From positions 36,702,165 through 36,766,164 of the forward strand of contig OX424564.1 in assembly GCA_949152475.1 (NCBI GenBank): a DNA stretch of 64,000 nt, in the 5' to 3' direction. A program made the position numbers and the translations under genes. The notes beneath the pieces were generated by a model that saw nothing but the letters and a program-made list of their open reading frames with translations, made no database searches and was not told where the DNA came from. Of the stretch, positions 12,189 to 39,591 are shown in pieces; the stretch's first letter is position 1; every line of letters begins with the position of its first letter. The DNA is from Terebella lapidaria (Eukaryota > Annelida > Polychaeta > Terebellida > Terebellidae).

Positions 12189-12198
12189 GATTGCTTCA

Positions 12199-12200
12199 TT

Positions 12201-12239
<39 letters not shown>

Positions 12240-13228
12240 TAGCACGATACAGGCCACAGTTTTAGTGCGAGCATCACGAAATTTTTCAGATAGGTAGGTA
12301 TTCACCCAGGAAGGACACCGAAAGTTTTTGAAGAAAATCGGTTTATTGATGACGTCATCAAAAATTCTTGAAAACTCGAAAAATCCCTATCTTTAACATG
12401 GGGCGATTTTTCAAAAATTCATAACTCGTTCAATTTTCAATGAATTCTCTTGAAATTTCAGTCACATGTGTAGAATGACATCCTATACACACATTATAAT
12501 TTTGACTCGGATCGGACCCGGATTACGGATTTGACAGCTATTTGAATTTAACATTGAAAACTCCATTTAACTTATATTTTATATTATATTTCGGTCTATT
12601 GTGCATATTTCAGCTTGATTTTTCCTACAAAGTGGCGGACTATCATGGTCCATAAACTGAAAAAATTTCATCCGGATCGGATCCGGATTCCGGATTTTAT
12701 GGATACATTTATTTTTCTTCTGGATCCAATTTTTAAAAAATAATTCAACATTTAATTTTGAAGTTTTTTATGTAGAAAATTGCAGTGTTATTTCTAGTTT
12801 ATGGTGCACTTTTCATGTTGAAAATATATTGAAAACTCGCTGAGATATCAAGACGGAAAGAGAGGTGGGGTAAATCTGTCTGTCAGCCCGTTCACACGCC
12901 AATAAGATGTGGAAACGATTACCCCCTGTGCACTTGTACCGTCTCTAATATCAACACTCGGTCGCGTAGTAATACAATATGCCTTGTATGCATCTGAATA
13001 CTGATCTCAAACAACATTTCTGTGGTTTCCTAACTCAGTGACACACAAGTGATATAACAAAGCCTAAAACTCTTGTCTAAATACAATCTGTGGCAAGCCA
13101 GGGGCTCTTTTATATCAGCACTATCGGGGGTGACGAAAACGCGTAGGGAGCACCATTCATCTAAAAACCAAAGATCCTGTACATGAAACGGATATACGCA
13201 GGGTCTCTTCTACTTGCGGAGCTTTATT
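12199..13228 (+). mobile_element. Element body without termini (F2/F4-related)
   Basis: A (GTCT)n tract (12199-12240) and the inner block TTAGCACGATACAGGCCACA begin a body resembling the F2 leader (GATGACGTCATCAAAAATTC). A GATCCGGAT repeat pair (12508-12688) and the common 3' domain (12780-12935, with GAAAACTCGCTGAGATATC and ACCCCCTGTGCAC) follow, then a tail with GGGGGTGACGAAAACGCG near 13126. The tail matches the untruncated one after 48285. No 5' hairpin is seen and no clear 3' hairpin. Confidence 0.55.
12508..12688. repeat. Pair of near-palindromic CGGATCGGAYCCGGAT blocks
   Basis: Two blocks, at 12508-12525 and 12670-12688, sit about 162 bp apart in similar flanks (CGGATTTGACAG or a diverged form downstream). 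A homologous pair lies at 48517 and 48685. The repeated ATCCGGAT palindrome is unlike the rest of the window. Confidence 0.6.
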
Positions 13229-13426
13229 AGTTGACGAATTGAAAATTCGACAACTATGTTGGTCAGTTCCGTTTGTTAGTTGACGAATTAAAAATTCGTC
13301 AACTATGTTGGTCAGTTCGGTTTGTCTGTTTGTTACTTGACGAAATTAAATTTCGTCAAGTATGTTGGTCAGTTGCGTTTGTCTGTCTGTTTGTTTGTTA
13401 CTTGACGAAATTAAATTTCGTCAAGT
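13229..13426 (+). other. Four stacked 5' termini: F2, F2, F1, F1
   Basis: Hairpins at 13229-13255 (F2, slightly decayed), 13278-13304 (F2), 13335-13361 (F1) and 13400-13426 (F1). Each is followed by TATGTTGGTCAG and a short GTTTG stretch that runs into the next hairpin. This is what successive insertion of elements into the GTTT tract just inside the previous 5' end would produce. The matching 3' ends follow downstream in reverse order (15636 F1, 17806 F1, 19355 F2, and 20415 or 21451 F2). Confidence 0.8.
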
Positions 13427-13439
13427 ATGTTGGTCAGTC

Positions 13440-13505
13440 GCGTTTGTCTGTCTGTTTGTTTGTTTGTTTGTTTGTTTGTTTGTTTGTGTGTTTGTTTGTG
13501 TGTTA
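13440..13505 (+). repeat. (GTTT)n microsatellite with GTCT/GTGT variants
   Basis: The longest uninterrupted landing tract in the window. It begins GTTTGTCTGTCTGTTTG and serves as the reference for the interrupted tract after 28832. Confidence 0.95.
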
Positions 13506-15605
13506 GCGCTCCACAGGTCACAATTTTGATCGTAGAATCATGCAAATAGGTCAGAAGATGTGCAATCAAATACAGATGGATGAGTTCATTTTTGGGAGGT
13601 CAAGGTCAAATATTGAGTTCAAGGTCACGCAAAACGTCAAAAACACATAAATGGCCATAACTCCGGTTCTAATTGTCCTAGAGACATCAAACTAAGTTCA
13701 TGTTGTAGATATACTTGAGTTCTATCTTCTGTGACCTTGACATTGACATTTGACCTTGACCTTGAGAAGTTCGCCATAAGGTGAATGTCAAGGTCAAGTA
13801 CGAATGTCAGCGCACCATATCGAGTAGTATATCGTTGGAAAGGTCTTGACCCCCTGATTCCAGTGATACCTTATTTTTGGCGCTGCGACGTAAACTGACG
13901 TCACAATGACGTCATAAACGTCAAATTTCCGAAATTTCAAAAGGCCATAACATCGTTAATACTGTATGGAATCTCTTGAAACTTGATATGCATATTGACA
14001 GCAATGACCTCTACGAATTTAAGTACAAAGGTCAAAGGTCAAGGTCAAGGTCATCGAAATCCTAGAAAAACACGTTTCCGGTAATAAGATCCGTTTGAAT
14101 TGTCGTAGGTTCATGAAATTTGAACCATATCATTCAGAAGAGGTATAGCAATCGGGCGTATATGTCAATTTCATGATTGACCTTGAACTTGGTCAGGAAA
14201 ATAAGGTCATATGAGGAAAACTTCAAGGTCAAATTTTCAAACTAACTGAAACCTATCAAGTAGTATATCAAATGAAAGGTCTTGATTGCCTGGTACATAA
14301 TGTCTCATCAGTTTTGAGATGTGACGTTTATTGACGTCACAGTGACGTCATAAACGTTAATTTTCCGAAATTTCAAACGGTCGTAGTGTCCACAAATCTT
14401 GTTTGAATCTGATGAAATTACACATTTATAATATATGTCTTCATGCACAGGCAATGCACAATTTTCGTGACTCAAGGTCAAAGATCAAGGTCAAGGTCAC
14501 GCAAAATGTTAAAAACACATCAGTGGCCATAACTTCGGTTCTATTTGTTATAGAGACTTCAAACCAAGTTCATATTGTAGATAAACTCGAGTCCTATCTT
14601 CTGTGACCTTGGCCTTGGCATTTGATCTTGACCTTGAGAAGTTCGCCTAAGGTGAATGTCAAGGTCAAATACGAAGGTCATCGCACCATATCGATTAGTA
14701 TATCGTTGGAAAGGTTTTGAGCCATTGATTGCAGTGATGCCCTATTTTCGGCGCTGCGACGTACACTGACGTCACAATGACGTCATAAACGTCAAAGTAC
14801 CGAAATTTCAAAAGGCCATAACAGCGTCAATACTGTATGGAATACCTTGAAACTTGACATGCATATTAATAGCATTGACCTTTAAAAATTGAAATACAAA
14901 GGTCAAAGGTCAAGGTCAAGGTCATTGAAATCCCAGAAAAACACCCTTTCGGTTATAACATCAATGTATGTTTGTTTGTTAGCGCTCTAGAGGTCACAAT
15001 TTTGATTCCAGAATCATGAAAACTGGTAGTAAGATGCACAATCAACTTATGACGGATGAGTTCACTTTTGGGAGGTCAAGGTCGAAAATTGAGGTCAAGG
15101 TCAATGAAAAGGTCAAAATCGAATAATTGCAATAACTCCGCTCCCAATCAAGTCTAATTTTTCTAAGTATTATTGTAATTTTATTTGGTCAATTCCCTAT
15201 CATATGATGTATGTTTGATGGCCGTACGACCAAAACTGCCGATTTGCGACAGAGGTCGAAAATTCGGGGGTCAAGATTTTCGTTTTTGGGGATCCCAACG
15301 TTTTAGACTATGTTTTTTAACCAAGTTTCAATATCTTTTTTTTATGATTTGTACTCAGGAGTTGTGCCTCATCAATTCCAACAAAACTTTGAAATTTCAG
15401 ACCTCAAGGTCAAGAATTAAGGCCAAGGTCACGGTGAAAATGAAGCAACTCTCACGTCTAATGTCTAAAATTGTAGACTATACTGCTGGATGATGTTCAG
15501 GAGATGGCTTAAATATCTCGATTTCTAATGCTAGGGGTTGTTCAGGGAATGATTTCAATGTGTAAATTTGTGTACATGTTTAAATGTAAACAAATGTGTA
15601 AATTA

Positions 15606-15636
15606 TTTCGTCAAGTGTTGGCCTATGGCCGATTTT
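15606..15636 (+). other. F1 3' terminus
   Basis: TTTCGTCAAGT (15606-15616) is the inverse of the F1 5' arm. One base later TTGGCC-TAT-GGCCGA (15618-15632) forms a 6-bp hairpin with one wobble, and the element ends GATTTT. GTTT tract and inner body of another F1 copy follow. Confidence 0.85.
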
Positions 15637-17806
15637 TTGTTTGTTTGTGTGTTAGCGCTCCACAGGTCACAATTTTGAACGTAGAATCATGGAATTAGGG
15701 CATAAGATGTGCAATCAAGTATAGATGGATGAGTTCACTTTTGGAAGATCAAGGTCAAATATTGAGGTCAAGGTCACGCAAAACGATAAAAACACATAAA
15801 TGGCCATAACTCCGGTTTTAATTGTCCTAGAGACTTCAAACCAAGTTCATATTGTAGATAAACTCGAGTTCTATCTTCTGTAACCTTGACCTTGACATTT
15901 GACCTTGACCTTGAGAAGTTCGCCTAAGGTGAATGTCAAGGTCAAATACGAAGGTCAGCGCACCATATCGAGTAGTATATCGTTGGAAAGGCCTTGACCC
16001 CCTGATTGCAGTGATACCTTATTTTCGGCGCTGCGACGTAAAGTGACGTCACAATGACGTCATAAACGTCAAATTTCCGAAATTTCAAAAGGCTATAACA
16101 TCGTCAATACTGTATGGAATCTCTTCAAACTTAATATGCATATTGACAGCAATGACCATTACGAATTTAAGCACAAAGGTCAAAGGTCAAGGTCAAGGTC
16201 ATCGAAATCCCAGAAAAACACGTTTCCGGTAATAACATCAGTTTGATTTGTCGTAGGTTCATGAATTTTGAACCATATCCTTCAGAAGAGGTATAGTAAT
16301 CGAGTGTATATGTCAATTTCATGATTGACCTTGAACTTTGTCAGGAAAATAAGGTCATATGAGGAAAACTTCAAGGTCAAATTTTCAAACTAACTGAAAC
16401 CTATCAAGTAGTATATCAAACGAAAGGTCTTGATTCCCTGGTACATACTTTCTCATCAGTTTTGAGATGTGACGTTTATTGACGTCACAGTGACGTCATA
16501 AACGTTAATTTTTCGAAATTTCAAACGGTCATAGTGTCCACAAATCTTGTTTGATTCTAATGAAATTATACAGGTATGAAATATGTCTTCATGCACAGGC
16601 AATGCACAATTTTCGTGACTCAAGGTCAAAGATCAAGGTCAAGGTCACGCAAAATGTTAAAAACACATAAGTGGCCATAACTCCGGTTCTATTTGTTATA
16701 GAGACTTCAAACCAAGTTCATATTGTAGATATGAGTCCTATCTTCTGTGTCCTTGACCTTGGCATTTGACCTTGACCTTGAGAAGTTCGTCATGAGGTGA
16801 ATGTCAAGGTCAAGTACGAAAGTCAGCGCACCATATCGAGTAGTATATCGTTGGAAAGGTTTTAAGCCCCTGATTGCAGTGATACCCTATTTTCGGCGCT
16901 GCGACGTACATTGACGTCACAATGACGTCATAAACGTCAAATTACCGAAATTTCAAAAGGCCATAACAGCGTCAATACTGTATGGAATACCTTGAAACTT
17001 GACATGCATATTAATAGCATTGACCTTTACGAATTGAAATACAAAGGTCAAAGGTCAAGGTCATCGAAATCCCAGAAAAACACCTTTTCGGTTATAACAT
17101 CTGTTTGAATCGTTGTAGTCTCATAAAATTTGAACCATATCATTCAGAAGAGGTATAGCAATCAGACTTATATGTCAATTCCATGATTAACCTTGAACTT
17201 GATCGGAAAAATGAGGTCACATGAGCAAAACTTCAAGGTCAAATTTTCAAACTAACTAAAAGCTATCAAGTAATATATCAAATGGAAGGCCTTGAACCCA
17301 TGATAAATAGTTTCTCATCAGTTTTCAAATGTGACGTTTATTGACGTCACAGTGACCTCATGTACGTAAATTTTTCGAAATTTTGAAAAGCCACAGTGTC
17401 CGGAATTCTTGTTCGATTCTGATGGAATTGTTCAAGTATAATTTATATCTTCATGCACGGGCAATGCACAATTTTTGTGACCCAAGGTCAAAGGTCAAGG
17501 TCAAGGTCAAAGAAAAGGTCAAAATCACGAAAATTGCCATAACTTCGGAACTATTCGTCATAGAAAGTTCAAACTGGGACCATATTGTAGCATATCAAAA
17601 GGTCTTTGTCCGCTGACCTTGAATGTGCACTTTGACCTTGACCTTGAAAAGTTTGCCCAACGTAAAAATTTCAGGAAAAAAGTATCTTTCTTCAAATTTT
17701 GAGGAGTTGTTCAGTAAATCTTTTCAATGTGTAAATTATGGGTAAATGTTTTAAATGTAAACAAATGTTTAGTCATTTCGTCAAGTGTTGGCCTATGGCC
17801 GATTTT
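15637..17806 (+). mobile_element. Long F1 body resuming after a nested insertion, with 3' terminus
   Basis: Begins within a GTTT tract (TTTGTTTGTGTG), then GCGCTCCACAGGTCAC, with CRE pairs at 16044, 16480, 16912 and 17342 (430-436 bp core period), and ends with the F1 3' terminus at 17776-17806. The best reading is the remainder of the element whose 5' hairpin is at 13335. Near-copies lie at 32887-35067 and 50124-52324. Confidence 0.75.
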
Positions 17807-19355
17807 TTGTCTGTTTGTCTGTTTGTCTGTTCGCACGTTACAGGCCACAGTTTTCAAGCTAGCATCCCGAAACTTTTTTGATAGATAGGTATCCGCCCTG
17901 GGACGGCACCGAACGTTTTTGAAAGAAATCGGTTCGTTGATGACGTCATCAAAAATCATTGAAAAATCGAAAAATCCCTATCTCTCATCATTGGCGGATT
18001 TTCAAAAATTCACACAGCAGTCACATTCAGACCGATATCTCTGAAATTCAACACACCGATATACAATGATATCTTCCATCGAACTGCGAAGTTTTACTCG
18101 GATTGTTCAAACGTCAATGACGTCACGACGTGAAACGTCATTTTTCGAAATCGGGCTATATATCGGAAAGTATTTGTCGTACAGAGAAGCGAATTGCACT
18201 ATTGGAAAGCTCGTTGAATTCTGGTTTAGAAGGGTACTGTCCGATACTTTTCCGCCATGAAAGATTTTCCGCTATGACGTCATAAACGTAAGGCCTGTCA
18301 TACCAATTTTTCGACTTTTCAGCAAACTTTCAAACATCTACAGTGCACTCAACTTTGAAGGTATTGAACTGTAATTATCTGCACGTATGTGAAATAATGA
18401 TATCCAGCCACATACCAAGCTTCAACACGCTACGTGCAACGTCAATGACGTCATGACGTAAAACGTCAATTTTCGAAATCGGGCTATATATCGGAAAATA
18501 TTTGTCGTACAGAGAAGCGAATTGCACCATTGGAAAGCTCGTTGAATTCTGGTTTAGATGGGTACTGTCCGATACTTTTCCGCCATGATAGATTTTCCGC
18601 TATGACGTCATAAACGTAAGGCCTATCATACCAATTTTTCGACTTTTCAGCAAACTTTCAAACATCTACAGTGCACTCAAATTCAAAGGTATTGAACTGT
18701 AATTAACAGAACGTATGTGAAATAATGATATCCAGTCACATACCAAGTTTCAACACGCTAGGTGCAACGTCAATGACGTCATGACGTAAAACGTCAATTT
18801 TCAAAATGGGGCTATATATCAAAAAGTATTTGTCGTAGAGAGAAGCGGATTGCACCATTGGAAAGCTCGTTGAATTCTGGTTTAGAAGGGTACTGTCCGA
18901 TACTTTTCCGCCATGATAGATTTTCCGCTATGACGTCATAAACGTAAGGCCTGTCATACCAATTTGTCGACTTTTCAGCAAACTTTCAAACATCCACAGT
19001 GCACTCATATTCGATATTATTGGACTGTAATTATCAGAACGTATGTGGAATAATGATGCCCAGCCATTTAACAAGTTTCAGCACGCTATGTGCAACGTCA
19101 ATGACGTCATGACGTAAAACGTCAATTTCCGAATTGGTGCTAATTACATTAAACAGATTACTGACTTTGTTTTCTTATTTATTGCCCCATAAGAAACACA
19201 TGCACGATTTTGGTCAATATCCGTCAATCGGATAAGAGAAATTCATGCAAATTAGGGGATTTCATGGTCTTTATTCAACTCAGATCTGAATACTCGTTTT
19301 GACATAATTGCAATTTTTATGGCAATTCGTCAACTGCCGGGCCTATGGCCCCTCG
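17807..19355 (+). mobile_element. F2 body resuming after a nested insertion, with 3' terminus
   Basis: Begins in a GTCT/GTTT tract, then GTTCGCACGTTACAGGCCAC and four core monomers with anchors at 18113, 18441, 18769 and 19097, exactly 328 bp apart. It ends at the F2 3' terminus (19324-19355). Its 5' hairpin is most simply the F2 copy at 13278. Confidence 0.75.
18113..19125 (+). repeat. F2 core: tandem 328-bp monomers
   Basis: GTCAATGACGTCA-type anchors are exactly 328 bp apart. Each monomer has clustered ACGT cores, GGGCTATATATCGGAAA, GGAAAGCTCGTTGAATTC and CGCTATGACGTCATAAACGT. Unlike F1 and F3 cores it lacks AGGTCA clusters but keeps the ACGT clusters. Confidence 0.9.
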
Positions 19356-19383
19356 TTAGTTGACGAATTAAAATTCGTCAACT
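19324..19383 (+). other. F2 3' terminus abutting an F2 5' terminus
   Basis: AATTCGTCAACT (19324-19335), hairpin GGGCC-TAT-GGCCC (19339-19351) and end CTCG (19355) are followed after one T by TAGTTGACGAATT, the 5' hairpin of the next F2 copy (19358-19383). This fixes both ends of the family to within a base or two. Confidence 0.85.
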
Positions 19384-20415
19384 ATGTTGGTCAGTTCCGT
19401 TTGTTTGTATGTCTGTTAGCACGTTACAGGCCACAGTTTTCGAGCTAGCATCCCGAAACTTTTTTGATAGATAGGTATCCGCCCTGGGACGGCACCGAAC
19501 GTTTTTGAAAGAAATCGGTTCATTGATGACGTCACCAAAAATCATTGAAAATCCCTATCTCTCATCATTGGCGGATTTTCAAAAATTCACACAGCAGTCA
19601 CATTTGGACCGATATCTCTGAAATTCAGCACACCGATATATAATGGTATCTCCCATCGAACTGCGAAGTTTTACTCGGATTGTTCGAACGTCAATGACGT
19701 CACGACGTGAAACGTCATTTTTCGAAATGGGGCTATATATCGGAAAGTATTTGTCGTACAGAGAAGCGAATTGCACCATTGGAAAGCTCGTTGAATTCTG
19801 GTTTAGAAGGGTACTGTCCGATACTTTTCCGCCATGATAGATTTTCCGCTATGACGTCATAAACGTAAGGCCTGTCATACCAATTTTTCGTTTTTTTCAG
19901 CAAACTTTCAAACATCTACAGTGCACTCAAATTTGAAGGTATTGAACTGTAATTATCAGAACGTATGTGAAATAATGATATCCAGCAACACACCAAGTTT
20001 CAACACGGTAGGTGCAACGTCAATGACGTCACCACGTAAAACGTCAATTTTTGAAATGGGGCTATATTTCGAAAAGTATTTGTCGTACAGAGAAGCTAAT
20101 TGCACCATTGGAAAGCTCGTTGAATTCTGGTTTAGAAAGGTACTGTCCAATACTTTTCCGCCATGATGGATTTTCTGCTATGAGGTCATAAACGTAAGGC
20201 CTGTCATACAAGATTTACGGCTTTTCAGCAAACTTTCAAACAAGCACAGTGCACTCAATTTTGGAGGTAATAGGCTGTAATTATGAGAACGTATGTGGAG
20301 CGTTATTATTCTGGGACGTCCCAAGTTTCAACACGCTACGTGCAACGTCACTTCGGTATGACGTAATTGACGTTTCTATGGCAAATTCGTCAACTGCCGG
20401 GCCTATGGCCCCTCG
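19357..20415 (+). mobile_element. F2 element with both termini (about 1.06 kb)
   Basis: 5' hairpin 19358-19383, a short GTTTGTATGTCTG tract, inner block GCACGTTACAGGCCACAG, core anchors at 19690, 20019 and 20347 (329 and 328 bp), and 3' terminus with subterminal repeat 20384-20395, hairpin 20399-20411 and CTCG at 20415. It is non-autonomous, with no plausible coding region. It is the smallest F2 copy here with both ends. Confidence 0.85.
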
Positions 20416-20585
20416 TAATTGTATGTCCATCAGTAAGATGTCTGTTAGCACGATAGCGACCACAATTCTGGAGATATTTTCACGAAAATTTACACGGTTA
20501 TTCTTTATGTTAAAGACTAGAAATGGTTCAATTTTCGTGAAAATCGGTTGAGTGAAGACGTTACAAAAATATCTAAAAAATTCCT

Positions 20586-21110
20586 CACGCTGCCGCCACA
20601 GTAGCCACACCAATGCCCAGCCATGGGATATACCAGCATTTATTCTGAGCGCGGTCTCTCGTACGCTATATACTTCACGCGCAGTAACTTCAAGCGACAG
20701 ATTGGCTCAGTCAGTAAAGGCGTTAGGTGGTGGTGCGCGGGGTCACGGGTTCGATTCCTATTGTCTTTTTTTTTTTTTAAATTCCGACTAAATGACTTTT
20801 TCTGTTTCTGAGTGTTTTTTTGTATTAATTCTGATATGTTTTCCACAGTCACCCTTTTATCTAATTCTATTGTTTCGCGATATTAAATCAAAATCAAGCC
20901 TGAAGCAGAAAACACAAAGAATCCACTACTTGGTGCCTTTATCACTGTTTATGGAGTTTGAAAAAAAAAAAAACGTTTCATGAATATGCATGAGTGGAAT
21001 ATTTCAGTGTGTCTTCGGATGAATTATTTGATCCAGCTACAATTTTCATTGCAAAATGTTGTATTTTACGTTTGTTTCTGGCATCATCAAAATCTGATTG
21101 CATCCTACAC
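20586..21110 (+). mobile_element. tRNA-derived SINE with 5' leader and 3' tail, copy 1
   Basis: A leader (CACGCTGCC through CACGCGCAGTAAC) precedes an A-box-like TGGCTCAGTCAGTAAAGGCG (from 20703) and a B-box GGGTTCGATTCC (20747-20758), followed by a run of about 14 T. The sequence then continues to a tail with GGCATCATCAAAATCTG near 21079. Leader, boxes and part of the tail are shared with 39592-39975. The tail 21006-21096 is similar to the reverse complement of the 369-bp satellite at 57360-57452. Exact ends are uncertain. Confidence 0.65.
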
Positions 21111-21621
21111 GTACGTTTAATTTCCGAAATTTCAAAAGGCAATAACAGCGTCAATACTGTATGGAGTATCTTGAAACTTGTTGTACCCATTGATAGTATT
21201 GACCTCTACGAATTGTAGTACAAAGGTCAAAGATCAAGGTCAAAGTCATCGAAATCCCAGAAAAAACACCTGTAAAGTAATAACATTTGCTTGAATCGTC
21301 GGAGTCATCGATTTTGAACCACTTCATTCGGAAGCGGCAAAACAATCAAATGTGTATGTCATGTCCAGATAATAACATTACTATGACCTTGACCTTTCAC
21401 ATTGAGATGAAAGTTTGCGAATTCGTCAACTGCCGGGCCTATGGCCCCTCGTAATTGTATGTCCATCAGTAAGATGTCTGTTAGCACGATAGCGACCACA
21501 ATTCTGGAAATATTTTCACGAAAATTTACACGGTTATTCTTTATCTTAAAGACTAGAAATGGTTCAATTTTCGTGAAAATCGGTTGAGTGAAGGCGTTAC
21601 AAAAATATCTAAAAAATTCCT

Positions 21622-22146
21622 CACGCTGCCGCCACAGTAGCCACACCAATGCCCAGCCATGGGATATACCAGCATTTATTCTGAGCGCGGTCTCACGTAC
21701 GCTATATACTTCACGCGCAGTAACTTCAAGCGACAGATTGGCTCAGTCAGTAAAGGCGTTAGGTGTTGGTGCGCGGGGTCACGGGTTCGATTCCTATTGT
21801 CTTTTTTTTTTTTTTTAAATTCCGACTAAATGACTTTTTCTGTTTCTGAGTGTTTTTTTTGTATTAATTCTGATATGTTTTCCACAGTCACCCTTTTATC
21901 TAATTCTATTGTTTCGCGATATTAAATCAAAATCAAGCCTGAAGCAGAAAACACAAAGAATCCACTACTTGGTGCCTTTATCAATGTTTATGTAGTTTGA
22001 AAAAAAAAAACGTTTCATGAATATGCATGAGTGGAATATTTCAGTGTGTCTTCGGATGAATTATTTGATCCAGCTACAATTTTCATTGCAAAATGTTGTA
22101 TTTTACGTTTGTTTCTGGCATCATCAAAATCTGATTGCATCCTACA
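21622..22146 (+). mobile_element. tRNA-derived SINE, copy 2 (duplicated with its host unit)
   Basis: Same element as at 20586, displaced by 1036 bp, with GGTGTTGG in place of GGTGGTGG in the anticodon region and different homopolymer lengths. B-box at 21783-21794. Confidence 0.65.
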
Positions 22147-22491
22147 CGTACGTTTAATTTCCGAAATTTCAAAAGGCAATAACAGCGTCAATACTGTATG
22201 GAGTATCTTGAAACTTGTTATACCCATTGATAGTATTGACCTCTACGAATTGTAGTACAAAGGTCAAAGATCAAGGTCAAAGTCATCGAAATCCCAGAAA
22301 AAACACCTGTCCAGTAATAACATTTGCTTGAATCGTCGGAGTCTCATCGATTTTGAACCACTTCATTCGGAAGCGGCAAAACAATCAAATGTGTATGTCA
22401 TTTCCAGATAATAACATTACTATGACCTTGACCTTTCACATTGAGATGAAAGTTTGCGAATTCGTCAACTGCCGGGCCTATGGCCCCTCGT

Positions 22492-22568
22492 TACTTGGCC
22501 AAATGAAATTTGGTCAAGTATGTTGGTCGGTTGCGTTTGTTACTTGGCCAAATGAAATTTGGTCAAGT
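22492..22568 (+). other. Two stacked F3 5' termini
   Basis: Hairpins at 22493-22519 and 22542-22568 have arms ACTTGGCCAAAT and ATTTGGTCAAGT and a 3-nt GAA-type loop. Each is followed by TATGTTGGTCGGTTGCGTTTG. The first is a 49-bp stub that ends where the second begins. Confidence 0.8.
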
Positions 22569-24992
22569 ATGTTGGTCGGTTGCGTTTGTTTGTTTGTTTG
22601 TTTGTTTGTTTGTCAGTACGCACTCTAGCGTCCACAATTCCAGTTCTATCCTTCCCAAACTTGGTCGGAATATTCTGTAAGACAATGGCTTGGACGAGTT
22701 CGAAGATGGGCATTCAAGGTCAAATATTGAGGTCAAGGTCATGCAAAATGTCGAAAACACATAAATGGCCATAACACCGGTTCTAATCGTCCTAGAAACT
22801 TCAAACTAAGTTCATATTTTAGACAAACTCGAGTTCTATCTTCCGTGACCTTGACCTTGACATTTGACCTTGACCTTGAGAAGTTCGCCTGAGGTCGAAG
22901 TCAAGGTCAAATACAAAGGTCGGCGCAGTATATCGAGTAGTATATCGTTGGAAAGGTCTTGAGCCCCTGATTCCAGTGATATCTTATTTTCTGCGACGTA
23001 AACTGACGTCACAATGACGTCATAAACGTCGAAAAGCCGAAATTTCAAAGGGTCATAACATCGTTAATAGTGTATGGAATCCCTTGGAATTTGATATGCA
23101 TTTTGACAGCATTCACCTCTACGAATTAAAGTACAAAGTTCAAAGGTCAAGGTCAAGGTTACCGAAATCCCAGAAAAACATGTTTTCGGTTATAACATCT
23201 GCTTGAATCGCAGCAGACTCCTGAAATTTGATCCATATGATTCAGAAGAGATATGGCAATCAGACGTGTATGACAAGTTCATGATTGGTTTTGAACTTGG
23301 TCGGCAAAATGAGGTCACATGAGCAAAACTTGAAGGTCAAATTTTCAAACTTACTGATACCTATCAAATAGTACATCAAATCGAAGGTATCAGTCCCCTG
23401 ATACATACTGTTCCATGCTTTTTCAGATGTGACGTCTACTGACGTCACAGTGACGTCATAAACGTCAATTTTTCAAAATTTCAAAAGGCCATAGTGTCCG
23501 TAATTCTTTTTTGATTCTGATTAAATTATTCAAGTATAATCTGTATGTCCATACACAGGCAGTGCACAACTTTCGTGACCCAAAGTCACAGGTCAAAGCC
23601 AAGGTCAAGGAATAGGTCAAAATCACATAAATGGCCATAACTTCAGTTCTATATGTCAGGAAGATTTTAAATTAAATGCATACTGTAAATAAACTCAAAG
23701 TCTATCTTCAGTGACCTTGACCGTGACCTTTGACCATGACCTTGACCCAACCGCTCAAGGTCAAACTTTCATGAGAAAACAATAATATCTCTGACTCTCA
23801 ATTTGATGCTTGAATACGATGTATTGTTGGTCCCTTATGCTCCACGTCAATTTTGAGTCTGATCGGATAAGCCATTGGGATGAAATTGACGTTCTTATGG
23901 CAACAAAGCTGGTCCCATTATAAGCAAAATCGCATATCCCGAGCTATCTATACTGATAACTGCCTGAATGATGATTGTGAAAATCTGTCAGTAGACTGTC
24001 TTATAAGTGAGGTCAAGTTCTTCCAGTTAAAAAAATTTCAAGGTCAAATGTCAAAGCCCGAGGTCAATATTGACCTTCAATGGAAAATCGTGTAGGTCAC
24101 TATATCTCAACTGTTAATGAAAACAGGAACGCAAAAGTAAAACCAGAATGTTGTCTTCACCTAGCCTAGAAACATTTGTATTTACACCTAAGGCCTACGA
24201 CCCATAGCCTTTCAAGTGCCTTGGTAAAATTTGACCTTAAAAATGACCTTGACCTTCACTTTTTAAAAATTTTGAAAGGTCTTCAAGAGTACTTTCCGAA
24301 TCTGTTGCCATTTTAAAAATATGATGATATTTCAGGTCACTATGACGTCAAACGTGATTTTAATTTGAATTAGAACCTGTCGGTTCCCATAGTCATGTTG
24401 GAGTGTGCAGGTTGCATGCACCGCAAGCGCCCACCACGACTCCGTCATTGTGAATATCTACGAGGAAACAATGTGTTCAATAACAGTATTATTCCTAGTT
24501 TATGATGCACTTTTCATATTTGCAATACATTGAAAACTCACCGAGATATCTTCATGGAAAGAGCAGTGGGGGTAAATCTTGTCCCCAGACCGTTTATACA
24601 CCAATAAGTTGTGGAAACGATTACCCCCTGTGCACGAGTCCCATTCTAACTATAATGATTCGGTCGTGTAGTAACACAATATACCTCGAATAATCTAAAT
24701 ATTTACTTCAAAACAACGTTGCTGTTGTTTTCTAACTCAGTGATGTCCAGATGACACAAAGCCTAAAAGCCATGATGTATTTACTACAATTTCAGGCACG
24801 AAACACTCCTTATTATTCAAACTATTGGCGATGACGAACCGGGTTCGAACCGGGTTTTTATAAATAACTTGTATATATGCATAGGATATTGTTACTTGAC
24901 GAAATCAAACATTTTGTCAAGTATGTTGATCGGTTCTGTTTGTTACTTGGCCAAATGAAATTTGGCCAAGTATGTTGGTCGGTTGCGTTTGT
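22541..24992 (+). mobile_element. F3 array unit 1 (2452 bp)
   Basis: 5' hairpin, seven TTTG repeats, inner block TCAGTACGCACTCTAGCGTC, then AGGTCA-rich core with CRE pairs at 23004 and 23437 (433 bp apart). Next come a low-AGGTCA middle (23780-24400), the common 3' domain (GAAAACTCACCGAGATATC near 24530, ACCCCCTGTGCAC), and a tail ending GATGACGAACCGGG. An F1-like 5' stub and another F3 stub close the unit. It lacks the F3 3' hairpin. It differs from unit 2 by a 5-bp deletion (TTGGC type) near 22990. Confidence 0.85.
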
Positions 24993-25020
24993 TACTTGGC
25001 CAAATGAAATTTGGTCAAGT
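24893..25020 (+). other. Stacked 5' termini: F1-variant, F3, F3
   Basis: Hairpins at 24894-24922 (arms ACTTGACGAAAT and ATTTTGTCAAGT, followed by TATGTTGATCGG), 24945-24971 and 24994-25020 (both F3). The F1-variant stub and one F3 stub repeat at 27350 in the same order. Confidence 0.8.
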
Positions 25021-27449
25021 ATGTTGGTCGGTTGCGTTTGTTTGTTTGTTTGTTTGTTTGTTTGTCAGTACGCACTCTAGCGTCCACAATTCCAGTTCTA
25101 TCCTTCCCAAACTTGGTCGGAATATTCTGTAAGACAATGGCTTGGACGAGTTCGAAGATGGGCATTCAAGGTCAAATATTGAGGTCAAGGTCATGCAAAA
25201 TGTCGAAAACACATAAATGGCCATAACACCGGTTCTAATCGTCCTAGAAACTTCAAACTAAGTTCATATTTTAGACAAACTCGAGTTCTATCTTCCGTGA
25301 CCTTGACCTTGACATTTGACCTTGACCTTGAGAAGTTCGCCTGAGGTCGAAGTCAAGGTCAAATACAAAGGTCGGCGCAGTATATCGAGTAGTATATCGT
25401 TGGAAAGGTCTTGAGCCCCTGATTCCAGTGATATCTTATTTTTGGCGCTGCGACGTAAACTGACGTCACAATGACGTCATAAACGTCGAAAAGCCGAAAT
25501 TTCAAAGGGTCATAACATCGTTAATAGTGTATGGAATCCCTTGGAATTTGATATGCATTTTGACAGCATTCACCTCTACGAATTAAAGTACAAAGTTCAA
25601 AGGTCAAGGTCAAGGTTACCGAAATCCAAGAAAAACATGTTTTCGGTTATAACATCTGCTTGAATCGCAGCAGACTCCTGAAATTTGATCCATATGATTC
25701 AGAAGAGATATGGCAATCAGACGTGTATGACAAGTTCATGATTGGTTTTGAACTTGGTCGGCAAAATGAGGTCACATGAGCAAAACTTGAAGGTCAAATT
25801 TTCAAACTTACTGATACCTATCAAATAGTACATCAAATCGAAGGTATCAGTCCCCTGATACATACTGTTCCATGCTTTTTCAGATGTGACGTCTACTGAC
25901 GTCACAGTGACGTCATAAACGTCAATTTTTCAAAATTTCAAAAGGCCATAGTGTCCGTAATTCTTTTTTGATTCTGATTAAATTATTCAAGTATAATCTG
26001 TATGTCCATACACAGGCAGTGCACAACTTTCGTGACCCAAAGTCACAGGTCAAAGCCAAGGTCAAGGAATAGGTCAAAATCACATAAATGGCCATAACTT
26101 CAGTTCTATATGTCAGGAAGATTTTAAATTAAATGCATACTGTAAATAAACTCAAAGTCTATCTTCAGTGACCTTGACCGTGACCTTTGACCATGACCTT
26201 GACCCAACCGCTCAAGGTCAAACTTTCATGAGAAAACAATAATATCTCTGACTCTCAATTTGATGCTTGAATACGATGTATTGTTGGTCCCTTATGCTCC
26301 ACGTCAATTTTGAGTCTGATCGGATAAGCCATTGGGATGAAATTGACGTTCTTATGGCAACAAAGCTGGTCCCATTATAAGCAAAATCGCATATCCCGAG
26401 CTATCTATACTGATAACTGCCTGAATGATGATTGTGAAAATCTGTCAGTAGACTGTCTTATAAGTGAGGTCAAGTTCTTCCAGTTAAAAAAATTTCAAGG
26501 TCAAATGTCAAAGCCCGAGGTCAATATTGACCTTCAATGGAAAATCGTGTAGGTCACTATATCTCAACTGTTAATGAAAACAGGAACGCAAAAGTAAAAC
26601 CAGAATGTTGTCTTCACCTAGCCTAGAAACATTTGTATTTACACCTAAGGCCTACGACCCATAGCCTTTCAAGTGCCTTGGTAAAATTTGACCTTAAAAA
26701 TGACCTTGACCTTCACTTTTTAAAAATTTTGAAAGGTCTTCAAGAGTACTTTCCGAATCTGTTGCCATTTTAAAAATATGATGATATTTCAGGTCACTAT
26801 GACGTCAAACGTGATTTTAATTTGAATTAGAACCTGTCGGTTCCCATAGTCATGTTGGAGTGTGCAGGTTGCATGCACCGCAAGCGCCCACCACGACTCC
26901 GTCATTGTGAATATCTACGAGGAAACAATGTGTTCAATAACAGTATTATTCCTAGTTTATGATGCACTTTTCATATTTGCAATACATTGAAAACTCACCG
27001 AGATATCTTCATGGAAAGAGCAGTGGGGGTAAATCTTGTCCCCAGACCGTTTATACACCAATAAGTTGTGGAAACGATTACCCCCTGTGCACGAGTCCCA
27101 TTCTAACTATAATGATTCGGTCGTGTAGTAACACAATATACCTCGAATAATCTAAATATTTACTTCAAAACAACGTTGCTGTTGTTTTCTAACTCAGTGA
27201 TGTCCAGATGACACAAAGCCTAAAAGCCATGATGTATTTACTACAATTTCAGGCACGAAACACTCCTTATTATTCAAACTATTGGCGATGACGAACCGGG
27301 TTCGAACCGGGTTTTTATAAATAACTTGTATATATGCATAGGATATTGTTACTTGACGAAATCAAACATTTTGTCAAGTATGTTGATCGGTTCTGTTTGT
27401 TACTTGGCCAAATGAAATTTGGCCAAGTATGTTGGTCGGTTGCGTTTGT
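24993..27449 (+). mobile_element. F3 array unit 2 (2457 bp)
   Basis: Nearly identical to unit 1. Recognisable landmarks are displaced by 2457 bp (for example the CRE pair, the GACGTCAAACGTG block and the GAACCGGGTTCGAACCGGG tail). It ends with the same F1-variant stub and F3 stub. No coding potential beyond short chance frames. Confidence 0.88.
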
Positions 27450-27531
27450 TACTTGGCCAAATGAAATTTGGTCAAGTATGTTGGTCGGTTGCGTTTGTTT
27501 GTTACTTGACGAAATGTAAATTTCGTCAAGT
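27350..27531 (+). other. Stacked 5' termini: F1-variant, F3, F3, F1
   Basis: Hairpins at 27351-27379, 27402-27428, 27451-27477 and 27504-27531. The last is a true F1 end lying inside the GTTT tract of the F3 copy at 27451. It opens the 26.9-kb F1 block, after which that F3 copy resumes at 54408. Confidence 0.8.
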
Positions 27532-28769
27532 ATGTTGGTCAGTCGAGTTTGTCTGTCTGTTTGTTTGTTTGTTTGTTAGCGCTCTACAGGTCACAATTTT
27601 GATCGTAAAGTCCCGAAAATTTGTCAGAAGATGTGCAGTCAGTACTCGACCAAGTGATTAACTTTTATGAGGTCAAGGTCAAATATTGAGGTCAAGGTCA
27701 CGCAAAACGATAAAAACACATAAATTGTCATAACTCCAGTTCTATTCGTTATAGAGACTTCAAACCAAGTTCATATTGTAGATAAACTCGAGTTCTATCT
27801 TTTGTGACCTTGACCTTGGCATTTGACCTTGACCTTGAGAAGTTCGTTATGAGGTGAATGTCAAGGTCAAGTACGAAGGTCAGCGCACCATATCGAGTAG
27901 TATATTGTTGGAAAGGTCTTGAGCCCCTGATTCCAGTGATATCTCATTTTTGGCGCTGCGACTTAAACTGATGTCACAATGACGTCATAAACGTCAAAAA
28001 TCCGAAATTTCAAAGTGCCATAACATGGTCAATAGTGTATGGAATCCCTTGAAATTTGATATGCATTTTGACAGCATTGACCTCTACGAACTGAAGTACA
28101 AAGGTCAAAGGTCAAGGTCAAGGTCATTGAAATCCCAGAAAAACACGTTTCTTGTAATAACATCCGTTTGAATTGTCGTAGGTTCATGGAATTTGAACCA
28201 TATCATTCAGAAGAGGTATAGCAATCGGACCTATATGTCAATTCCATGATTGACCTCAAACTTTGTCTATAATCTGAAAAAACTTAATCAGAATCCTATG
28301 ATAATTCTGGTTTTTACAGATATTTTTTATGTTTTCATGGCTCCAATTTTCACAAATTTACTGAACATTTAATTCTAAATCATTTATGCAGTCAGTTGCA
28401 GTGTTATTTCTAGTTTATGGTCCACTTTTCACATTTGGAATAAATTGAAAACTCGCCGAGATATCAAAGTAGAAAGAGAAGTGGGGTGAATCTGATTCTC
28501 AATCCGTTCACACACCAATAAGCTGTAGAAACGATTACCCCCTGTGGACATGTCCCCTTCTAAATATACACACTCGGTTGAGCAGTAGTACAGTATATCA
28601 TATATGTATCCAAGTGCACATCTCAAACAACAAAACAATTCTTTTGTTTTCTGACTCAGAGGTGTCAAACTGGTATAATAAAGCCTAAAACTCATGTCTA
28701 AATACAGTCTGGGTCAAGCGACAGCCCACTTTATATCAGAACTTTTATTACTTTGATTTTGGCAATTAT
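27503..28769 (+). mobile_element. F1 unit of the 1272-bp type (1267 bp), no 3' terminus
   Basis: 5' hairpin 27504-27531, GTCT/GTTT tract, GCGCTCTACAGGTCAC block, AGGTCA/CRE core, common 3' domain, and tail ending TTTATATCAGAAC. It then has a decayed F4-like hairpin remnant (TTTGATTTTGGCAATT) fused to the next F1 5' end. Diverged from the 1272-bp units at 41188-48285 but collinear with them. Confidence 0.8.
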
Positions 28770-28881
28770 TACTTGACGAAATGTAAATTTCGTCAAGTAT
28801 GTTGGTCAGTCGAGTTTGTCTGTCTGTTTGTTACTTGACGAAATGTAAATTTCGTCAAGTATGTTGGTCAGTCGCGTTTGT
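28770..28881 (+). other. Two stacked F1 5' stubs
   Basis: Hairpins at 28771-28798 and 28833-28860 are each followed by TATGTTGGTCAGTC and a short GTTT/GTCT stretch that runs into the next terminus. The second belongs to the tract that resumes at 31360 and again near 32887. Confidence 0.8.
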
Positions 28882-29069
28882 TACTTGACGAAATTAAATT
28901 TCGTCAAGTATGTTGGTCAGTTGCGTTTGTCTGTCTGTCTGTCTGTCTGTTTGTTTGTTTGTTAGCGCTCTACAGGTCACAATTTTGATCGTAGAGTGCT
29001 GAAAATTTGTCAGAAGTTGTGCAGTCAATACTCGACCAAGTGATTAACTTTTGGGAGGTCAAGGTCAAA

Positions 29070-30240
29070 AATTGAGGTCAAGGTCAAGCAAAAGGTCAAA
29101 ATCGAAAAATCGCGATAACTCCGTTTTTAATCAATGTTATTTTTTCTAGCTATTTTTATATTTTTCTATGGTCAATTCCGCATCATATGATGCATGCCCG
29201 ATGGTCGTACGACCAAAACTCCCGATTTTCGGTCCAGGTCGAAAATTTGGGGGTCACGAATTTAGGCTTTTTTCTACCTCGCAATATTCAAAACCATATT
29301 ATAGAGCAAATTCCCGATATATGTTGCTGATTTTCACTCAGAAGTTGTGCCTTATCACACAAAACACGATTGTGAAGCTATAGGACTCAAGGTCAAGAAT
29401 TAGAGTTAAGGTCATAGTAAAGGTCAAAATCGAAAAATTGCAATAACTTGGCTTTTGATCAAAATTAATTTTTCTAAACATTTTTGTATTTTTATTTGGT
29501 CAATTCGACATCTGCTGACGTATGTCCGATGGTTGTACGACCAAAACTCCCGATTATCGCCCATGGTTGAACATTTGGGGGTTTTCAGATCATTTGTATT
29601 TTGTGCAATATTCAAACCGTTATTGTGGAGTCAGAATCCGATAGAAGTTGCTGATTTTTAATCAGTAGGTGTGTCTTATCATACTGAACATATGTGTAAA
29701 GATGTAGGACTCAATATCAAGAATTACAGTTAAAGTCATAGTAAAGGTCAAAATCGAAAAATCGCAATAACTCCGTTTCTATTCAATGTTATTTTTTCTG
29801 AGTATTTTTATATTTTTTTATGGTCAATTCCGCGCCCTGCGGTGCATGCCCGATGGTCGTACGACCAAAACTCCCGATTTTCGGTCCAGGTCGAAAATTT
29901 GAGGGTCATGATTTTATGGTTTCATGTCTCGCAACCTTCAACCCCATATTGCGAGGCCAATTTCTGATATGGGTTATTGATTTTTACTCAGGAGTTGTGC
30001 CTTATCAAATTGAACAAATCTGTGGAGTTTCTTAACTCAAGGTTGAAAATTAAGGTCAAGGTCATGTAAAAGGTCAAAATCGAAAAATCGCAATAACTCC
30101 ACTTTTGATCAACATTAATTTTTGTCAGTATTTTTGTATTTTTATATGGTTAATTCGGCGTCAAATGGTGTATGTGCGATGGTCGTACGACCAAAAGTCC
30201 CGATTATCGCCCGGTGCCGAAAATCTGGGGGTCATGTGCA
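29070..30240 (+). repeat. F1 core, 325-bp class, diverged monomers
   Basis: Each monomer runs from GGTCAAAATCGAAAAATCG through ATGGTCAATTC, GTACGACCAAAACTCCCGAT, GAAAATTTGGGGGTCA and a TCAGGAGTTGTGCC-like end. Monomers are visibly older than the 325-bp copies at 38300-39560. Confidence 0.85.
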
Positions 30241-30542
30241 AGTTGCATAGTGGTAGCCCTAGTGTAGTGGCCGCAAAATTACCTCACATAAGTTGCCAAT
30301 TTATAGGAGATATGAAATGTTTTATGCAGATTTGAATACACAAATGTGAAACGTGGACTTTCTTGCCCTAATTCTCCAATTGAGTTGACTGTGAAAGTTG
30401 GTTATCAATACTAGTTTGGGTTATAAAGTTACAGTTATTTTGGATCGATTTCTTCGTGCAGTCATGCCGACATGCATGCGGTCATACATGTACAGTAAAT
30501 GTTGTTCTCCATGGGGAAGGGGAATATGGCAATTTATTGTAT

Positions 30543-30650
30543 GATGGCTCGGTGGCCGAGTGGTTCCAGCACTCGCTCTATAACACGTAGGCTTTTGACT
30601 CTGCTAGTTCGAATCTACCTGCTTTTAAATATTTTTTTTTTGCTCTTTAT
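30543..30650 (+). mobile_element. tRNA-Leu/Ser-like SINE head
   Basis: A-box-like TGGCCGAGTGG (30553-30563) and B-box AGTTCGAATCT (30606-30616) are spaced as in a class II tRNA and followed by a T-rich tail. The would-be acceptor strands do not pair, so this is not a functional tRNA gene. Only one copy is seen in this window. Confidence 0.55.
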
Positions 30651-31371
30651 TTTTTTCAAGAATATCCAGTACCATTATAATCTATTATAGTGGTTTTATC
30701 CAAGAACTTTTTGCAATTTGTTTTGATATATTATGAATATACACTGTTGAATGATCATTTGGTACTAATATGGCGTGCAAAAATTATCGTTGCCTCTGTC
30801 ATATAATACCAGTATAGCATGCAAAAACGGCCATCACGATCTGCTTGAACTCATTAGATAGTTCTCCGAAGATGCAGCATCATGATATGAAAGTTACCAA
30901 GTTGTAGTAACGAACATTTATAGCAGTGTTGTATTCTATAATTTTTCTTATATTGACATCATCAAAATTTTGTGCTGTTAGTAGTATATATTATGTTGAT
31001 ACACACATCGATTGAATGTTTTGAATGAGTCAGTCTCAAATGGCTGGGTCTTGCTCAGGAGACGTCATAAAGATTCAATATGTATGTCTGCTCAGGAGTT
31101 GTGCATTATTAATTCTAACAAATTTGTGAAAATTCAGAATTCAAGGGCCAAGGTCACTGTGAAAATGAAGCAACTCTTGTCTAATTTTAAAATTGTGAAT
31201 TCTTCTGCTGGGTGATGCTCAGGAGGTGTCTTAAAAGTGCCAATTTCTAATGCTAGAAGTTGTTCAGTATATCTTTTCAATGTGTAATTAATGAGTAAAT
31301 GTTTTAAATGTAAACAAATGTTTAGTTATTTCATCAAGTGTTGGCCTATGGCCGATTTTCTGTCTGTTTGT

Positions 31372-32886
31372 TACTTGCCGGAATCTAAAGATTTCGGCAA
31401 GTATGTTGGTCGGTTGGTTTGATTGATTGATTGATTGTTTGTTTATCTGTTAGTGCTCTACAGGTCGCAATTGTACAGTGATTGTTACGTTACTTGGGGT
31501 ATGTAATCTGTAGGATAATAGGCAGGCACCGCACACTTTTGGTGAGTCTAGGTCAAAGGTCAAGGTCAAGGTCAAGCAAAGCGTCGAAAACACATAAGTG
31601 GCCATAACTCCAGTTCTAATTGTCGTAGAGACTTCAAATCAAGTGCATATGGTAGATATACTCGAGTTCTATCTTTTGTGACCTTGACCTTGACATTTGA
31701 CTTTGACCTTGAGAGTTCGCCTGAGGTCGAATATTTGACCTTGGAGGTCACCTCCTCCGATTTTCGATCTGATGCTTGGAAACGATGTCGGACCGGTCCC
31801 TTATGGTCAATGTCAATTTTTAGCGCGATCGGTCAATCCGTTATGACGTAATTGACGTTTCTATGGCAACGAAATCGGTCCCATTATAAGCGAAATTGCA
31901 TGTTGCAAGCTGTCCATGCTGATAAAAGCGTCAATAATGTGCGTAAAAATCTAATGATACACCTGTTTATAGCCAAGGACGAGTTCTTTTGTTCCGCGAA
32001 ATTTCAAGGTCGAACGTCGGAAGCCAAGGTCAATATTGACCCGCAAGTGAAAACCATGTAGGTCACTATATCTCAGGAAGTAAGCAAGATAGAGACACGA
32101 AAGTAAATCCACAGTATTGCACTCACTTAGCCTATCAACTTTTGTATTTACACCTAAGGCGTATGGCCGATAGCCTTTGCAAGCGCCTGAGGTCGAAGTT
32201 GACCCAAAAAATGACCTTGACCTTGACCTTTCGCGAAAATATCGAGTAGTAACTCGTTTGAAAGGTCTTCGGGAGTAGTTTCGATATATGTTCTTATTTT
32301 TGGAATCTGACGTCATATGACGTCATAATGACGTGAAACGTGATTTTATCATACTTCAATTGATTGTTTACGTGAGATGCATAAACCATTTATGATTATT
32401 GTTGATCCGGTGCTCTGGTAAGTATTGGGGATACCTACTGAAGCTATTTGACAAATATCAGTTCAATAATTGCAGTGGTAATGGCCTAATTGACCTTTTT
32501 ATGACGGAAAATTGGAGAAAATTTCATTTGTTTGTCTTTTCATACTCATAGCGTCCACATTTGTTGCTTGATTCTTTTCAAATTTGATGTAGATATTCTG
32601 TAGGATAATGGCTCTTGACAAAATGATTTTGAGAAAAATAGCTCTATTGATGACGTCACAAAAGATCCGAATCCTATCAGTCTTTCATGACCACAAACTG
32701 CTTATGCTAGGAAAGAAATATAATACTTTTTTCAATGTTTTCCATCAACTATACAAAATCTAGAAAAATGCCATTACTCATATTTAAAATAACCAGATGC
32801 ATCAACTTTGCAAAAAATTCAGTCTTTGGTAAAAGTTCAAGGTCATTGCCAGCTATTCCGGCAAGTTAGTCGACTATGTCGGTTCA
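31372..32886 (+). mobile_element. F4-variant element with both termini (about 1.5 kb)
   Basis: 5' hairpin 31373-31402 (arms ACTTGCCGGAATCT and AGATTTCGGCAAGT), then a GATT/GTTT tract, AGGTCA core, a region with GACGTCATATGACGTCATAA near 32309, and a 3' end with ATTCCGGCAAGT (32855-32866). AGTCGAC-TAT-GTCGGTT (32868-32884) follows and can pair over 7 bp with two wobbles. It sits inside a GTCTGTTTGT tract of an F1 element. The 3' end could alternatively contain a decayed F2-type 5' remnant (TTAGT...CTATG), so the terminal hairpin is less certain than in other families. Confidence 0.65.
31417..31440 (+). repeat. (GATT)n microsatellite
   Basis: GATTGATTGATTGATTG replaces the usual GTTT tract just inside this F4-variant 5' end, showing local drift of the tract. 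Confidence 0.9.
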
Positions 32887-38082: not shown

Positions 38083-38279
38083 TACTTGACGAAATTAAAT
38101 TTCGTCAAGTATGTTGGTCAGTTGAGTTTGTCTGTTTGTCTGTTTGTCTGTTTGTTTGTGTGCACTCTACAGGTCACAATTTTGGTCGTATCGTCATGAA
38201 CCTTCACCAGAAGGTGGACAATCAATTTCGTACCAAGTGGTAAACTTTTAGGAGGTCAAGGTCAAAAATTGAGGTCAAG

Positions 38280-39560: not shown

Positions 39561-39591
39561 CAAGGTCACGAGTTTTCCCGATCGAATTCTG

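Follow-up and report, generated by a model that had tools for sequence, protein, structure and literature searches.

The 64,000-bp stretch of Terebella lapidaria DNA analysed here (contig OX424564.1 of assembly GCA_949152475.1, hereafter C11; the whole stretch is called the window) consists largely of non-coding repeat units whose called ends all lie on the plus strand. At 13227-22490, four short 5' hairpins stand one behind the other and are followed downstream by 3' ends of the same classes in mirror order, like matched brackets. This pattern is best explained, with a probability of roughly 0.85, by nested insertion of elements resembling HINEs into a GTTT/GTCT tract carried at the 5' ends of their own relatives. 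An earlier note, made from the letters of the window, had proposed that each newcomer landed in the tract just inside the 5' end of the previous element, so that the locus would be a dated stack; its bracket observation is confirmed in part and its interpretation is partly supported. A window coordinate x corresponds to C11 position 36,702,164 + x, negative values and values above 64,000 lying in the flanks. The main stretch studied was 264 kb of C11 (the window and both flanks), and the genome scanned comprised 761.6 Mb in 438 contigs.

Complete units start with TTA(C/G)TTG..., form a palindrome of about 29 bp and continue with ATGTTGGTC or a near form. Behind the palindrome come the GTTT/GTCT tract, found 20-60 bp inside the palindromic 5' end in every element class, and a body often containing repeats of 317-436 bp, and at its 3' end the unit has an arm complementary to the palindrome's first half, followed by a GC hairpin. 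Five classes are separable by their arms (Table 1); the names F1-F6 extend the F1 and F2 of the earlier note, and F2s is the satellite-type subtype of F2. By their structure, target and non-coding nature, the elements fit HINE-type, that is non-autonomous Helentron-like, rolling-circle elements. As in a HINE 5' subterminal inverted repeat (subTIR), the 5' palindrome has a 13-bp stem 1-2 nt from the junction, and a 3' subTIR complementary to the 5' one, with a palindrome, is present in the five classes. No open reading frame of at least 150 aa was found in the 64-kb window, and the non-coding units carry a microsatellite and tandem repeats as HINEs do. Folded as DNA, two 5' palindromes were strong (-11.9 kcal/mol each, z -7.8 and -7.4); the three 3' ends folded were weaker (z -1.9, -1.2, and -4.2), two of them being little beyond shuffles. 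Canonical Helitrons begin with TC, end with CTRR and insert at A|T. They were rejected as an assignment, since the elements described here end in TTA(C/G)TTG... on one side and mostly in ...CTCG, ...TTCA, or GATTT next to T on the other, and their target differs as well.

All four 5' hairpins of the earlier note lie within 200 bp, as palindromes at 13227, 13276, 13333, and 13398 (brackets a to d) of classes F2, F2, F1, and F1, the two F2 hairpins being of different subtypes (F2s at 13227, F2 at 13276). The 3' ends were likewise recovered, starting at 15611 and 17781 (F1) and at 19330, 20390, 21426, and 22465 (F2). A tract with the body expected next was said to follow each of them, which holds after 15635 (F1) and 17805 (F2) but not after 20414, where a GTTT tract is lacking (TAATTGTATGTCCATCAG...) and the next 1,036-bp unit is unlike the body found behind hairpin a elsewhere. 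The extra F2 copies had been attributed to end-to-end insertion and tandem duplication; the F2 element at 19356 does lie end to end behind b, but the 1,036-bp units lack a 5' hairpin and are tails of a kind seen again at -19.7 and -17.3 kb. The proposed closings (F1, F1, F2) hold for the three inner brackets, with the F2 pair matching in class alone.

The outermost bracket is a different matter. Hairpin a, interrupted at GTTTG|TTAG, makes up the initial 49 bp of a roughly 1,077-bp monomer of the satellite occupying much of the upstream 82 kb, and the sequence at 12601-13226 is 99.8% identical to one monomer, with hairpin a continuing that match. The earlier note closed this bracket at 20415/21451, a pairing that was rejected because there is no tract and the wrong body at 20415, the body proper to hairpin a being that of the satellite monomer. 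The body expected behind it (GCACGATACAGGCCACAGTTTTAGTGCG) is missing after 20414 and is next found after an F3 3' end at 65226, 1.2 kb beyond the window, with a body start called at 65291 and resumption at about 65249. If pairing in last-in, first-out (LIFO) order is right, a single monomer has been split by about 52 kb, from 13227 to about 65.25 kb; at this outer level the join may also reflect a subtype boundary or recombination at a later time.

Table 1. Features of the stacked locus and its surroundings, and arms of the element classes
Feature	Position	Strand	Remarks
Right half of a ~1.08-kb F2s monomer	12190..13226	+	99.6% over 1,028 bp to intact monomer; preceded by F6 3' end at 12167
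Left half of the same monomer	hairpin at -3984		~16 kb upstream, by LIFO order
Bracket a: F2s 5' palindrome + TTCCGTTTG	13227..13275	+	same as first 49 bp of intact monomer at -12740
Bracket b: F2 5' palindrome + tract start	13276..13332	+	identical up to break to uninterrupted F2 at -57581
Bracket c: F1 5' palindrome + tract start	13333..13397	+	identical up to break to uninterrupted F1 at 66513
Bracket d: complete F1 element	13398..15635	+	own body directly; both ends called
Remainder of c (tract, F1 body, F1 3' end at 17781-17805)	15636..17805	+	body subtype A, predicted from hairpin c
Remainder of b (tract; body of F2 class containing 328-bp repeats; F2 3' end)	17806..19355	+	LIFO class match
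Element e: complete F2, end to end after b	19356..20414	+	palindrome 19356, direct body, 3' end 20390
Hairpin-less 1,036-bp tail unit, F2 3' end	20415..21450	+	97.8-98.3% copies at -19741, -17318, 21451
Second hairpin-less tail unit	21451..22490	+	98.3% to first copy
F3 5' palindromes + bodies, ~2.45-kb tandem units	22491..27501	+	22490-25046 vs 24942-27503, 99.7%
F1 elements and one F4, ~27 kb in all, in tract of third F3 unit	27502..54400	+	F1 3' end 54383, then F3 tract + body
F3 body resumed after 27-kb insert	54401..56706	+	22593-24993 vs 54404-56808, 99.67%
Further F5/F3 tandem units	56707..64000	+	called ends
Hairpin-less units	20415-22490; 37358-38057; 49408-50098; 52299-54383		
F1 arms			ACTTGACGAAAT/ATTTCGTCAAGT; 3' hairpin GGCCTATGGCC
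F2 arms			AGTTGACGAATT/AATTCGTCAACT; 3' hairpin GGGCCTATGGCCC
F3 arms			ACTTGGCCAAAT/ATTTGGCCAAGT
F4 arms			ACTTGCC(A/G)GAAT/ATTC(T/C)GGCAAGT
F6 arms			ACTTGGC(G/A)AAAT/ATTT(T/C)GCCAAGT
F5			5' end bearing F1 arms

Uninterrupted relatives, showing no difference as far as the break, exist for hairpins a, b, and c, and d has its own body directly. The satellite extends this to many more cases. Over the 264 kb, 45 starts of satellite bodies and 53 F2s hairpins were counted, 35 of which are joined as intact hairpin, tract and body; 10 bodies have no adjoining hairpin and 18 hairpins are without their own body, 12 of these with satellite on the left. The 10 split bodies pair in nested fashion with 10 of the 12 satellite-flanked hairpins, one pair inside another. 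In all ten split monomers the break lies inside the tract behind the 5' hairpin, and in all ten a 3' end stands directly before the right half (three F2, two F3, two F6, and three of a further type). This further 3'-end type reads TTTCGACAA(G/A)TTTGGCCTT(T/C)AGGCCAATGGTATCTCG and precedes the satellite right halves at -76863, -34914, and -4962. We compared the tract units of each split monomer with those of the nearest intact monomers, two right halves being given 2 or 3 of the 4 nearest. In 6/10 (-79404, -73751, -57630, -46404, -29314, and -8420), the two halves together have as many TTTG and TCTG units as the intact monomer near the right half, and these six show no target-site duplication. 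Three of the ten splits share an F2s-F2s-F6 stack at their start and may be copies, at least eight breaks being distinct. The cleanest case is a 904-bp monomer that holds a complete F2 element of 2,347 bp (-57581..-55235); its resumed half is 100% identical over 856 bp and its tract units (1+3 TTTG, 5 TCTG) are those of 20 intact monomers. An empty site is also available for the 27-kb insert of the window: the third F3 unit is broken at its tract, after a hairpin at 27449 (split 27,501/54,401), next to two unbroken F3 units of about 2.45 kb that are 99.7% alike.

The same target is seen from the side of the newcomers. Out of 145 hairpins in 250 kb, where tract letters amount to 4,468/250,000, 48 lie in the tract of the preceding hairpin, 66 start tandem units, 26 are at a 3' end and 5 elsewhere. 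The junction between stacked hairpins is GTTTG|TTA in 45/48, which, with the six satellite splits just mentioned, gives the T-rich/TT target free of target-site duplication that characterizes HINEs. That newcomers insert into the tract close behind the 5' end of older elements, as the earlier note had it, is thus well supported by the uninterrupted relatives, the 10/10 tract splits and these junctions. Among the first 100 F1 5' ends listed, neighbours no more than 20 kb apart were on the same strand in 70 cases and on opposite strands in 1. Such one-strand clustering would be explained by a T|T target, as described for Helentrons in PMC4067079, if the T-rich strand of the tract is always the same one.

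Bracket order was compared with shuffles in 230 kb, made up of 175 kb of C11 and 55 kb of contig C1 (C1:46453001-46508000). The counts for LIFO order, F1 subtype and hairpin location leave out the final 89 kb of the 264 kb, in which minus-strand F4 ends alone were called. The rules were built on the test sequence itself and the patterns for ends and bodies were widened once, so that the tests in C11 and the 55 kb of C1 are not blind. As a training rule, direct hairpin-body pairs agree in class in 89/89 labelled cases (one 5' end with an unlabelled body excluded). The 72 3' ends are followed by resumed bodies (31), hairpin-less tails (14), a hairpin directly (21), or unlabelled sequence (6). 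A strict LIFO class match was obtained for 21 of the 31 resumed bodies against a shuffled mean of 11.9, with 4/20,000 shuffles reaching 21, and 27/31 match some open hairpin at any depth. The subtype of an F1 hairpin predicts the resumed body in 8/11 (shuffled 3.4; 34/20,000), from a prediction table that is itself mixed for 4/7 hairpin types and leaves one resumption without a prediction. A further 20 kb, read after the rules had been fixed, contained 1 resumption, which was correct. Just beyond the window, the stack at 66269-66513 (F2s, F2, F4, F4, F1) has its inner three hairpins closing in mirror order (F1 3' end at 68729, F4 3' ends at 70017 and 71601).

The plus-strand clusters of C1 between 33.4 and 48.4 Mb, which had played no part in building the rules, were examined by exact-match positions among the matches listed, excluding minus-strand clusters and scattered single copies. 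With F1 alone, 3' ends less than 760 bp apart being merged, 5/58 3' ends were unmatched, compared to 17.0 when shuffled (0/20,000). With F1 and F4 together, in clusters of at least four and without any merging, 73/97 3' ends met their own class on top of the stack (shuffled 50.4; 0/20,000), 13 met another class and 11 an empty stack. In the test of F1 alone, stacked hairpins were closed in 20/26 and whole stacks in 6/10, and one stack of five hairpins had four closed. Terminus order is better balanced than in shuffles in both tests; for nested closings taken by themselves the excess is weak (see below).

Simple nesting does not account for everything at these loci. An F4 tandem array of 1,155-1,156-bp units runs from -3881 to 9580, with units about 99.9% alike within the window and a 3' end called only behind the last copy. 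Hairpin-less tails occur as an F1 3' end, about 671 bp and another F1 3' end (10 cases), and in an F2 form of about 1,014 bp (4 cases). In the window, such units measure about 1,036 bp (F2) or 691 bp (F1) and lie between 3' ends of the same class, behind different bodies. They share TG(C/T)ATGTC(C/G)ATCAG, resembling the sequence behind the normal 5' palindrome, and may be end-to-end copies that have lost the palindrome. Whole stacks also recur: the F2s-F2s-F6 stack is found at -73751, -46404, and -37508, and an F5 5' end occurs six times behind a common left flank. An attempt to date inner and outer copies from their divergence gave no readable age order because the copies are too alike, and some of the distances (>0.15) are unreliable, repeat numbers being different. 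Over 2,134 bp no difference is seen among five F1-A bodies in the 55 kb of C1, of which three are direct and two resumed, and identity in such different nesting contexts suggests recent activity or recent copying. Given tandem duplication, hairpin amplification, hairpin-less tails and recurring stacks, a stack records relative order at best. The dated stack of the earlier note survives as such an order where halves and repeat counts agree; beyond that, stacks recur and hairpins amplify alone.

A number of observations weigh against nested insertion, and some of them feed directly into other explanations. Ten of the 31 resumptions fail strict LIFO, and the 55 kb of C1 taken alone has no power, its nine resumptions being all F1 (6 strict versus 6.0 shuffled). 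In the C1 clusters 4/10 stacks were not fully closed among the matches listed, most of the 73 matches are simple side-by-side pairs, and 3' ends that follow another 3' end (same-class 3' ends less than 1,400 bp apart merged, clusters of at least four), met their class in 16/27 against 11.7 (488/20,000). Exact-pattern counts in the genome are unequal for the two ends (F1, 1,041 5' and 820 3'; F4, 618 5' and 658 3'). The body subtype of element b differs from the direct bodies of two un-nested TTCGG hairpins of the same subtype (-57581 and -32739), and the hairpins at -80533 and 66269 have satellite on the left without a matching body. A minus-strand stack at 159211-159848 has 11 F4 hairpins with a repeated spacing of 63, 67, 63, and 59, while two F4 3' ends only were found downstream in the fetched sequence, and looks like hairpin amplification. 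Among the ten split monomers, tract units do not sum in four (-37508, -21246, -3984, and 13227), and the halves are nearest to different monomer subtypes in four (-79404, -37508, -21246, and 13227). The outermost bracket belongs to both groups: left of a the sequence is of a 1,077-bp subtype (100% over 524 bp) and the right half of a 1,069-bp subtype (98.7%), and the tract halves sum to 3 TTTG + 2 TCTG units compared to 5-6 and 3 in an intact monomer.

The F4 stack with its repeated spacing and too few 3' ends, together with two identical F3 hairpins at 22491 and 22540 (49-bp period), is what one would expect of a short hairpin satellite, in which a 5' unit of 49-70 bp is multiplied by slippage between GTTT tracts, bodies multiply independently and any mirror order is accidental. 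Hairpins without matching 3' ends, which the earlier note had named as the case that would refute it, are thus encountered in that stack but not at 13227-22490, where a pure hairpin satellite was rejected in view of the matched bodies and 3' ends of b, c, and d; for the clean splits it is refuted. Such a satellite is also at odds with the alternation of classes within the 66269-66513 stack and the mirror order of its inner closings, with the conserved repeat counts of six of the ten split monomers and with the prediction of resumed bodies by hairpin subtype, and we regard it as highly improbable. Recombination between GTTT/GTCT tracts could instead have joined unlike halves, above all in the outermost pair (13227 with 65249), and the mixed subtypes and non-summing counts just listed argue for it, as do long duplications that start and end in tracts (22593-24993 and 54404-56808). 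Recombination creates no ordered hairpin stacks by itself, however, and six splits keep their repeat counts while all ten right halves directly follow a 3' end; as an explanation of the whole pattern it appears distinctly unlikely. It is also unlikely that a stack arose at another place and came in, or was copied, as a single composite unit with several 5' ends and one or more 3' ends, as proposed for Helitrons of Fusarium and maize, in which case the nesting would not be local history. The threefold F2s-F2s-F6 stack and the sixfold F5 5' end with its left flank point in this direction, and terminator bypass and multi-5' elements have been published (parts of PMC5148889, PMC3288121, and PMC12628747). 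But the repeated stacks share their outer left flanks, so that local duplication explains them equally well, the otherwise intact 904-bp monomer holds a single complete element, and a nested start would still be needed.

Nested insertion would work as follows. Copies are seen sitting in the tract, where they split the older element into a bare 5' hairpin on the left and tract, body and 3' end on the right. With insertion at a T|T step, the tract could be hit on its T-rich strand only, which would fix the orientation, and since each newcomer would bring a fresh tract, the pad would be renewed and the array would grow from inside. The enzyme would probably come from Helentron-like Rep/helicase elements of this genome. 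At 13227-22490, F1 element d would have entered F1 element c, c would have entered F2 element b, and b the satellite monomer of a; the F2 element e, the hairpin-less tails and the F3/F1 complex lie on the 3' side of b, and the monomer would resume only at about 65.25 kb. Duplication of tandem units, amplification of hairpins and copying of whole stacks would overlay this history. Whether the tract acts more generally as a self-renewing, orientation-locked landing pad, with one-strand clusters growing inside out, their order reflecting insertion history and their depth reaching tens of kilobases, we consider an even bet.

Rep/helicase machinery is plentiful in this genome and would be a candidate partner: Helitron_like_N gave 150 scored matches (234 candidates), many of them within open frames longer than 2,200 aa. 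A link between these genes and the HINE ends, sought from positions alone, was not obtained. By eye, among the matches listed, Helitron_like_N matches up to about 60 kb from hairpins or 3' ends were on the strand opposite to the hairpin-to-3' direction at C1 38.28, 38.30, 41.19, 41.32, 46.39, 47.15, 47.24, and 47.33 Mb, C3 25.08, 39.58, and 40.62 Mb, and C11 36.54 Mb; one Helentron with its gene in minus orientation is mentioned in the parts of PMC4067079 used here. The F1 5' core scanned against IMG/VR gave no match.

The comparisons with known systems refer to parts of the published texts. HINEs and Helentrons (Thomas et al., 2014; PMC4067079) share with the elements described here a palindromic subTIR a few bases from the 5' end, a 3' subTIR with palindrome, microsatellite or tandem repeats within some copies, a non-coding nature and a T-rich/TT target without target-site modification; self-nesting in their own tract, bracket order and a single orientation set ours apart from them as described there. 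The Cg_HINE elements of the Pacific oyster (PMC7492417) are similar in their 5' subTIR, complementary inverted repeat, GTCY-type microsatellite in several, satellite-like central repeats, 3' subTIR, palindrome and TT insertion without target-site duplication, but are densely interspersed in both orientations, whereas here they are clustered, stacked and on one strand per cluster. In the FoHeli Helitrons of Fusarium (PMC5148889), short (<200 bp) 5' duplications are attributed to self-insertion as here, in a model that was put forward for multiple 5' termini; the present loci add the matching 3' halves, the empty sites and the order. Multiple termini of maize Helitrons (PMC3288121) have also been explained by nested insertion, although these elements have a CTAG-type 3' end and no self-carried landing tract is described for them in the parts cited. 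Plant tandem arrays in which many 5' ends go with a single 3' end (Xiong et al., 2016, as summarized in PMC12628747) resemble the 1,156-bp F4 array, with the difference that tandem monomers here serve as landing sites. Self-insertion and nesting are known, and an orientation-locked self-carried tract was not met in the parts of the literature examined (PMC4344730 and the papers above), for which we make no claim of priority. With the principle of self-insertion already published, what is added here is a one-strand landing pad that the elements carry and renew themselves, together with the evidence for reading it.

In the parts of the literature cited, unusual multiple termini were the basis for inferring self-insertion of rolling-circle elements. 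The intact monomers described here, which number in the dozens and are nearly identical, provide built-in empty sites, so that target choice, the lack of target duplication, the strand rule and the order of insertion become readable. One rule would link multiple 5' ends, the microsatellites inside HINEs and the satellites derived from Helentrons, and it carries the warning that hairpin counts over-count insertions. If true, it may allow these elements to expand without hitting genes and may seed satellite arrays.

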